In this document: positions 2,127 to 3,187 of the stretch, in pieces
Position numbering within the stretch: the first letter of the stretch is position 1
How the letters are laid out: each line of letters begins with the position of its first letter
Program-made: the position numbers and the translations under genes
Notes under the pieces: generated by a model
The model's input: the letters and a program-made list of their open reading frames with translations, nothing else
What the model was told of the DNA's origin: nothing
Databases searched by the model: none
Source: [Mycobacterium] vasticus
GTDB lineage: Bacteria > Actinomycetota > Actinomycetes > Mycobacteriales > Mycobacteriaceae
Direction of reading: 5' to 3'
DNA: 64,000 nucleotides
Assembly (NCBI RefSeq): GCF_020181595.1
Contig: NZ_CP084028.1
Coordinates: forward strand, 3,767,132-3,831,131

Positions 2127-2127
2127 C

Positions 2128-2187
2128 GCCGAGTGTGAATCTCACGACGCGACACGCGGTGACCGCGTCGGGGAATTCCCACTCGCG
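2128..2187. repeat. Palindromic repeat, copy A (degenerate right arm)
   Basis: The first 34 nt (2128-2161) are identical to 3121-3154, in the same orientation. The left arm 2128-2150 is intact. The right arm 2165-2187 has about four substitutions plus a swapped terminal pair relative to copy B, so the hairpin is weaker. The copy lies between the convergent ends of ipdC and the DUF559 gene and covers the DUF559 stop codon (2142-2144). Confidence 0.9.
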
Positions 2188-3068
2188 GAGAGTCGGGCCC
2201 GACCGGACCAGCCGGCGACGTACATCGCCTCCTCCACCCGGGCGATCAGCGTCCCGCGGCGGTAGCGCAGCAGCTCCGCACTGACCCGGATGATCACCCA
2301 ACCCTGCTCGGTCAGCGCCACCTGGCGGTCGATATCGCGCTGCCGCTGCCTCGGATCGGTCCAGTGCTGCTGGCCGTCATATTCGATCCCGACCTTCAAT
2401 TCCCGGTATCCCATATCGAGCCGGGCCACGAATCCGCCGTAGCCGTCACGGACCACGATCTGTGTCTCCGGCCACGGTAGGCCTGCATCGATCAGCGCCA
2501 ACCGGGTGCGGCTCTCTTGAGGCGATTCCGCCCCGCTGTCCACCAGCGGCAGAATCCATCGCAGCCGATTCAGGTCCCGCGCCCCGGGGTGTGCGGCAAT
2601 GACGGCCTCGACCTCGGCGATCGTGACGCCGGTGGCGTTGGCCAGCGCGTCGAGCCGCCCCAGAGCCACCGACCGCGACCGGGTGTGCCGGCCGATGTCG
2701 AAGGCGGTCCGGGCCGGGGCGGTCACCACGATCCCGTCCACGGTCGTCACCTCGCCCGGCGCCAGGGCGTCGCGGTGCACGACGAGCTTGGGCGGCGTTT
2801 TGTGGTTGTCGTGCACCAGTTCGGCGTCCAGCCCGCCACTCACCCACTTCGCGCCCAGCAGCGCGGCGGCCGAGTTGCCGGCGACCACACCTCTGCGTCG
2901 CGACCACAGCCAGGCAGCCCGGGCCCGCTGCGACGCATCCAACTCAACCCCCCACGGCGCGAACACGCCGGGATAGACCGGCTCGTAGAGGGTCCGCATC
3001 GCCCGCTCGGGAATCGTCTTGTCGGCCAACGCCTCAGTCCCCAGGAACGGCCAGTCCACTTCCTTCAT
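2142..3068 (-). CDS. DUF559 / Vsr-like endonuclease-fold protein with AbiEi-like N-terminus
   Basis: This is a 308-aa cytoplasmic protein. The C-terminal ~110 residues carry the DUF559 (PD-(D/E)XK, Vsr-like) pattern: E185 in SPQESRTR, D218 in ARLDMGY, then E229 and D231 in GIEYDGQQHW, and a hydrophobic strand GWVIIRVSAELL. The N-terminal half resembles AbiEi-type winged-helix antitoxin-like proteins (GVVAGNSAAALLGAKW, residues 60-75). The start is the ATG at 3068. The last 14 codons (residues 295-308) and the stop are encoded by repeat copy A, and copy B lies 52 bp upstream of the start. Proteins of this class are widespread in mycobacteria with no settled function; nuclease activity is inference from the fold. 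Confidence 0.8.
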   Translation of the reverse strand: MKEVDWPFLGTEALADKTIPERAMRTLYEPVYPGVFAPWGVELDASQRARAAWLWSRRRGVVAGNSAAALLGAKWVSGGLDAELVHDNHKTPPKLVVHRDALAPGEVTTVDGIVVTAPARTAFDIGRHTRSRSVALGRLDALANATGVTIAEVEAVIAAHPGARDLNRLRWILPLVDSGAESPQESRTRLALIDAGLPWPETQIVVRDGYGGFVARLDMGYRELKVGIEYDGQQHWTDPRQRQRDIDRQVALTEQGWVIIRVSAELLRYRRGTLIARVEEAMYVAGWSGRARLSASGNSPTRSPRVAS

Positions 3069-3120
3069 GGCCGAATCCTGCTAGCAACGGCCAAAACGCG
3101 CATACGCCCATCCACAGCCC

Positions 3121-3180
3121 GCCGAGTGTGAATCTCACGACGCGACACGCGGTGGTTGCGTCGCGAGATTCACACTCGGC
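3121..3180. repeat. Palindromic repeat, copy B (near-perfect 23-bp hairpin)
   Basis: This 60-bp element has a 23-nt left arm (3121-3143), a 14-nt loop (3144-3157) and a 23-nt right arm (3158-3180). The outer 16 bp pair perfectly (arm begins gccgagtgtgaatctc), and only one mismatch lies in the inner part. It separates the VOC gene's 3' end from the DUF559 start. It could form a strong hairpin in DNA or RNA, and may also terminate the VOC transcript. Confidence 0.92.
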
Positions 3181-3187
3181 GCAGGGG

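Follow-up and report, generated by a model that had tools for sequence, protein, structure and literature searches.

The 64,000-nt stretch of DNA analysed here (the window) carries a gene for a DUF559/AbiEi nuclease that, together with its own palindrome, almost certainly forms a partnership of enzyme and DNA element. Palindromes flank related genes, are specific to protein subfamilies, recur as dispersed solo copies, follow the cognate gene in abundance and turn over at fixed genomic sites. By analogy with the REP/RAYT 'REPtrons', we consider it probable that they constitute a large family of dispersed palindromes (56-65 bp) with a dedicated nuclease partner. The same analogy, with a PD-(D/E)XK-type nuclease in place of the transposase, had been drawn in an earlier reading of the letters alone (the sequence-only reading), and the flanking copies, solo copies, specific pairing, co-abundance and turnover described below all speak for it.

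The window protein scores above the Pfam cut-off for DUF559 (23.6 bits, cut-off 20.6) and below it for MTES_1575 (PF18741; 34.5 bits, cut-off 38.2) and AbiEi_1 (17.9 bits, cut-off 22.2). Its AlphaFold2 model (mean pLDDT 90.4) supports an AbiEi-like and a Vsr-like domain, and fold comparison places the nuclease fold nearest to I-Bth0305I and 3hrl among the structures listed; a sequence match to the Hax3 TAL-effector chain was disregarded, being made up of numerous repeat matches that were each very weak. The fusion of an AbiEi-like N-terminus to a Vsr-like nuclease, proposed in the sequence-only reading, is thus backed by Pfam (for AbiEi_1 below the cut-off), the model and the fold comparison. 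The residues singled out in that reading are also conserved in a 20-row alignment, in which D218 is invariant, E185 and D231 are present in at least 90% of rows, and position 229 is occupied by E or D. NCBIfam assigned no family to either of the two proteins tried. With dN/dS values of 0.09-0.29 across 28 orthologue pairs, the window gene evolves under purifying selection. Its neighbours, at the window locus and in orthologues, are an NMO and a VOC gene, and no AbiEii-type partner gene lies next to the family gene at these loci. The genome is a single 4.55-Mb contig; Mycolicibacter species and Mycobacterium sp. UM_WGJ provide the best named matches.

The gene lies on the minus strand between the two palindrome copies, so that copy B is the upstream and copy A the downstream one (Table 1). 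As described in the sequence-only reading, the two copies of about 60 bp share their orientation: over 59 nt (2127-2185 and 3120-3178) they are 88% identical, with the first 35 nt identical, and their starts are 993 nt apart. Copy B, read there as a near-perfect hairpin with 23-bp arms, indeed has arms of 24 nt that pair with a single mismatch around a 14-nt loop; a second computation gave 27-nt arms at 93%. Copy A is a degenerate palindrome, and the gene's final 44 nt (about 14 codons) lie within it. The 16-nt arm is present exactly three times in the window, where chance would give 0.61 matches even if 3 mismatches were allowed. No Rfam family matches the element at threshold, the best score being that of mir-279 (25.3 bits; gathering threshold 56).

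Table 1. Features of the window gene and its flanking palindromes (window positions).
Feature	Position	Strand	Remarks
Palindromic element, upstream copy B	3120..3181	.	51 nt ahead of start codon
Palindromic element, downstream degenerate copy A	2127..2185	.	Orientation as B; overlaps gene 3' end
DUF559/MTES_1575 nuclease gene with AbiEi-like N-terminus	2142..3068	-	308 aa; ORF, Pfam, model, fold comparison, dN/dS
AbiEi-like part, codons 1-177	2538..3068	-	Putative palindrome-recognising part
Vsr/EDxHD-type nuclease domain, codons 182-287	2208..2525	-	

The window genome contains five family matches besides the window gene. By one fixed criterion, a palindrome adjoins all five loci tested (the window gene and four paralogues), on both sides in two; a degenerate second copy is also visible by eye at L039. 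Each paralogue has distinct arms. Two of the matches, L040 (G000:C1:4257495; residues 5-77; sequence partly masked) and L038 (G000:C1:4265807; residues 82-281), lie about 8 kb apart and look like two parts of one DUF559 gene split by an insertion; the frames just before L038 are ones that we take to be IS21-like. The window's own element class has few copies in its genome: allowing up to 3 mismatches in the arm, a full hairpin recurs just once more in the whole 4.55 Mb, in the argG-argH gap. A 400-kb sample of the same genome contains 9 strong hairpins. One is class-1-like, though its outer arms are altered (L433), two form a tandem pair of the L038 class and another is a variant of the L039 class. 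The tandem pair (L432, 18937-19132; C1 near 999 kb) comprises two direct hairpins 133 nt apart with no intervening gene, an arrangement that we liken to tandem REP arrays. The loop CTACTCGCACTTT is common to L037 (2399-2455) and L038 (2108-2162) despite their different arms, and similar loops are seen elsewhere. Although such a loop motif across arm classes is convincing by eye, its counts barely exceed those of shuffled centres and it clusters poorly, and we therefore do not claim it.

The gene-palindrome arrangement is general within the genus. Family proteins are present in 60 of 60 genomes, with 2-19 matches per genome. The sequence-only reading had proposed searching the genome and other mycobacteria for the 23-bp arm and its co-occurrence with DUF559 genes. 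Palindromes and family genes do co-occur: a palindrome adjoins 121 of 147 distinct mycobacterial family genes and is present on both sides of 65, compared with 39 and 1, respectively, of 420 control window pairs. The 147 genes are what remains of 157 loci after removal of ten that repeat another gene, and the specificity, mismatch and concerted-change tests below were redone without those ten. By the hairpin criterion, the other 26 genes have no palindrome. A direct repeat across the gene exceeds the 99% control level in 48 of 79 named loci, and across 80 loci the density of strong hairpins at distances of up to 250 nt from the genes (51 in 39 kb) is 49 times that of the remaining 1.33 Mb (35). 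Two other genomes of the genus show the same pattern, with palindromes at 9 of 11 genes tested in G006 (of 12 matches) and at 8 of 11 in G054 (of 15), the remaining matches being fragments or weak. The two copies can be strictly alike, as at L235, where they are identical over 65 of 65 nt. A further hairpin type, CAACGAAAA...TTTTCGTTG, whose loop is very short, also lies near some family genes (L069 2477-2524, L099, L134); it may represent a terminator or another kind of element.

The system is not confined to mycobacteria. The protein family was found in 155 of 197 sampled Actinomycetes genomes, 10 of which belong to the window's genus. Outside the genus, after dropping 5 of 20 loci that were cut by contig ends, a palindrome adjoins the gene at 8 of the 15 uncut loci (at 4 of them on both sides) and none was detected at the other 7. 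The sequence-only reading had suggested that the unit might not yet have been described in mycobacteria; we found no description of such a system in the open-access papers searched.

Each protein subfamily has its own elements, even where the loci compared occupy unrelated places in the genome. Across 6947 non-syntenic locus pairs, similar elements occur in 13 of 4529 pairs with protein identity below 50%, in 97 of 1952 at 50-60%, in 176 of 410 at 60-70%, and in 48 of 56 above 70%. Protein and element similarity show a rank correlation of 0.26, a value reached by 0 of 500 permutations. Solo elements resemble the flanking elements of their own genome only slightly more than those of other genomes (12.3 versus 11.2 of 16, p 0.017, 27 solos), a weak match.

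The two copies at a locus can also resemble each other more than they resemble their counterparts elsewhere. In the class-1 group (n=11), copies within a locus have a similarity of 33.8 versus 23.1 for the same copy across species, and same-side (23.1) and crossed (22.7) comparisons are equal, a pattern as in concerted evolution. Two further groups of 4 behave alike, a group of 8 does so weakly, a group of 5 gives equal values and a group of 2 reversed ones; some of these orthologue groups are defined by protein identity rather than by tested synteny. Three orthologue groups thus show clear concerted evolution of the two copies, one shows it weakly and two do not show it. Averaged over 34 loci, the second copy (27.9) is no more alike than the best orthologue (29.3, p 0.42), and an analysis that retained the repeated loci had the same outcome.

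Dispersal is most evident for the AGAC class, whose arm GCGAGCAGWCRCARA was found in 53 of 60 genomes with up to 105 matches per genome (copies beside the gene included), compared with 0-1 for a reversed-pattern control. Loci of the cognate gene type carry AGAC elements in 30 of 30 cases and at least two elements in 21, L291 having both on one side; at the 17 of these 30 loci where the gene was located by motif, elements lie on both sides in all 17. The AGAC arm count correlates with the identity of the best homologue (Spearman 0.74, n=60), and its median is 24 in the 33 genomes whose best homologue reaches 56% identity or more (a threshold for 'gene present' picked after inspection of the data) and 3 in the other 27. 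Independent contrasts on a 55-tip tree built from the adjacent NMO gene (5 of the 60 genomes lacked this marker and were omitted) gave r 0.72 with gene presence and r 0.64 with continuous identity; of the 19 nearest discordant pairs, 18 have more AGAC arms in the gene-carrying genome. The abundance of the AGAC class thus tracks the cognate gene once phylogeny is accounted for. Two exceptions, G051 (54 AGAC arm matches) and G046 (16), have only distant homologues of the cognate gene; in G051 the gene may have been lost, may lie on a missing contig, or the partner may be of another type.

Dispersal was also seen in a genome of another family, G304, where the arm GATCTTGACCTTTTCGGGG occurs 228 times at up to 1 mismatch (control 0), corresponding to about 115 near-identical copies. 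This genome has 4 family matches, including a DUF559 gene flanked by two full copies. In G304 elements (L378-L396) palindromy extends past the conserved 56 nt; the flanks differ among copies, for example at L384, and palindromes of more than 80 nt result.

AbiEi antitoxins repress their own promoters, and the palindromes could accordingly be operators of the AbiEi-like part in an autoregulated nuclease of a defence- or toxin-like system, with the solo copies as its regulon or as decoys. Consistent with this are the AbiEi-like fold, the PADLOC AbiEi models found in 3 of 3 proteins tested, and the near-constant position of the upstream copy ahead of the start codon (about -110 to -50). We nevertheless consider such an explanation unlikely: a second copy at the 3' end of 65 of the 147 genes and about 115 copies in G304 are more than an operator requires, and the genes adjoining the nuclease are NMO and VOC rather than an AbiEii-type partner.

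The sequence-only reading had raised the possibility of a small mobile or homing unit. In such a reading, gene and both palindromes would move together, and solo copies could be remnants of recombination between the two copies. The history of the window locus argues against this. The locus groups with 12 other loci in a cluster of both-flank synteny, 11 of which match the window directly on both flanks, and the gene is vertically inherited at this position. Among 72,556 plasmid records only 6 match the window protein, all below 60% identity, and viral contigs yielded 3 partial matches. Vertical inheritance and this rarity indicate that the gene is not a jumping unit, and the synteny, purifying selection and scarcity on plasmids and viral contigs leave the earlier proposal unsupported for this gene; on account of synteny and scarcity, a whole gene-plus-ends transposon was rejected as the main reading of the window locus.

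An empty-site comparison, as proposed in the sequence-only reading, covered twenty orthologous NMO sites and revealed gene-less sites, but not a clean jump of the unit. At four sites (G086, G101, G069 and G071) the gene and at least one detected palindrome lie between NMO and VOC, like in the window, and at three (G045, with the neighbours about 13 nt apart, G073 and G078) the gene is absent and VOC still adjoins. The gene-less site of G078 instead has a solo hairpin, which belongs to a different class, the one seen at the window-genome paralogue L037. VOC was not found at the remaining 13 sites, which include G108, where the gene lies 2 kb further on.

Other sites reveal turnover of the elements themselves. 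The argG-argH gap is occupied by the solo element in the window genome, by a different hairpin in G022, by none in the 93% identical G016, and by an element of the AGAC class in G006, G007, G010, G018 and G023; this site (L200-L222) looks like a hot spot for palindrome exchange. Likewise, a solo element is common to L076 and L079 and missing from L075 and L089. Hence, sites gain, lose or exchange elements between species. At the compared sites, solo insertions had no exactly definable ends, and no target duplications were found.

Joint movement of gene and palindromes would fit the architecture, the identical copies at L235, the gene-less sites with their one solo hairpin, and a nuclease fold shared with a homing endonuclease. 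Set against the syntenic locus and the rarity on plasmids and in viral contigs, it appears improbable. Moreover, two complete copies persist beside the gene, unlike in a homing gene that splits its site, and about 115 copies in G304, two of them at the one located gene, fit mobilisation in trans better than remnants.

The positions of individual copies bear on a further interpretation. According to gene calls from a crude script, 20 AGAC copies (one beside a family gene) comprise 9 between convergent, 4 between tandem and 3 between divergent genes, 2 in-frame and 2 unclassified ones, and 19 solo G304 copies comprise 6 convergent, 7 tandem, 1 divergent, 4 inside a predicted frame and 1 unclassified. 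Altogether, 6 of the 39 located copies lie inside a predicted frame and 3 are unclassified; the palindromes are mostly extragenic. No conserved GTAG tag was present in the 39 copies, which were examined with their flanks. Among the stem mismatches of 186 elements, read on the gene's strand, A-C (166) is as frequent as G-T (148; p 0.34), so that palindromy is not maintained for a gene-strand RNA hairpin alone. That the palindromes are I-shaped intergenic terminators incidentally close to DUF559 genes is the least likely explanation, a poor fit despite the many copies 5-50 nt from stop codons, the convergent AGAC copies and the mycobacterial terminators of this shape within 50 bp of stop codons described in a review (PMC12288462), because element sequence is specific to protein subfamilies, abundance tracks the gene, the G-T excess predicted for RNA pairing is missing and upstream copies precede start codons.

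We therefore return to a nuclease partnered with dispersed palindromes. In the model that we propose, the gene would stay at its place, be inherited vertically and serve the dispersed elements, its product recognising cognate palindromes in trans. A resident gene serving dispersed elements has been described for TnpA_REP, for which the mechanism of REP dissemination is called unresolved (PMC8266576). We judge it rather likely that the elements spread in trans with the protein's help. The AbiEi-like part may read the arms and the nuclease may cut or nick cognate palindromes; repair after cutting, as the putative driver of spread, would then disseminate and homogenise the elements. The protein would most likely act on duplex DNA in dimeric form, each subunit engaging one arm. 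A review states that I-Bth0305I forms a dimer on a target that measures nearly 60 bp (PMC3943268), which matches the length of these palindromes and suggested the dimer to us; cutting in this form is a tentative proposal. The chances appear balanced that Actinomycetes possess a separately evolved REP-type system comprising many subfamilies of DUF559/AbiEi nucleases whose fold is related to that of homing endonucleases and Vsr, each dimerising on and cutting its own palindrome of about 60 bp and seeding and homogenising up to 100 or more copies per genome.

The spread of REP sequences has so far been linked to a single kind of enzyme, the HuH transposases, by a mechanism that is not yet settled. 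If a differently folded enzyme shares this gene-element architecture, general features of such repeats could be told apart from the specifics of HuH chemistry. Such an enzyme would also suggest a role for the widespread actinomycete protein family and account for some of the strong hairpins between mycobacterial genes, with consequences for reading these as terminators. Since dozens of protein-palindrome pairs can be read from genomes, their DNA specificity becomes predictable and testable, and if nuclease and palindrome co-diverge, the arm sequences would be a ready record of changing DNA specificity. We found no link between DUF559 genes and palindromes in the open-access literature searched, most subscription papers being outside its scope; judged by titles and the beginnings of abstracts, no open-access paper naming DUF559 is about adjoining palindromes. 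The main text of a Mycolicibacterium mobilome paper contains none of the terms DUF559, palindrom, MITE, RAYT and inverted repeat.

Comparison with known systems places the partnership beside several of them. It shares the EDxHD/Vsr-type catalytic fold with the homing endonuclease I-Bth0305I and with Vsr, but has an AbiEi-like N-terminus and a gene outside any intron; in contrast to an EDxHD homing gene that splits its target, the gene is flanked by two near-complete copies. Unlike the AbiEi antitoxin of AbiE, the AbiEi-like part is fused to a nuclease and has no adjacent AbiEii toxin gene. The nuclease belongs to the same domain family as the MTES_1575 REase domain (PF18741, below the cut-off), which is described in PMC3710099 inside giant HEPN-helicase proteins, whereas here it is found in a stand-alone 308-aa protein with palindromes. 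CGTC-tagged REPs are likewise dispersed palindromes and are said to lack a dedicated transposase (PMC3733652); they differ in having a tag at one end, and neither mycobacteri- nor actinobacteri- occurs in their description there. The closest likeness is to REP sequences and TnpA_REP/RAYT, for which dispersed and mostly intergenic palindromes, copies flanking the partner gene, rare mobility of that gene, correlated abundance (here for the AGAC class only) and joint divergence of enzyme and palindrome are likewise described in PMC8266576. The differences are these: the partner is an AbiEi-like and Vsr-type nuclease unrelated to the HuH tyrosine transposase, several subfamilies coexist per genome, and the elements are full palindromes of 56-65 bp. 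With neither a HuH enzyme nor a conserved GTAG tag, the partnership is REPtron-like but stands outside REPtron membership.
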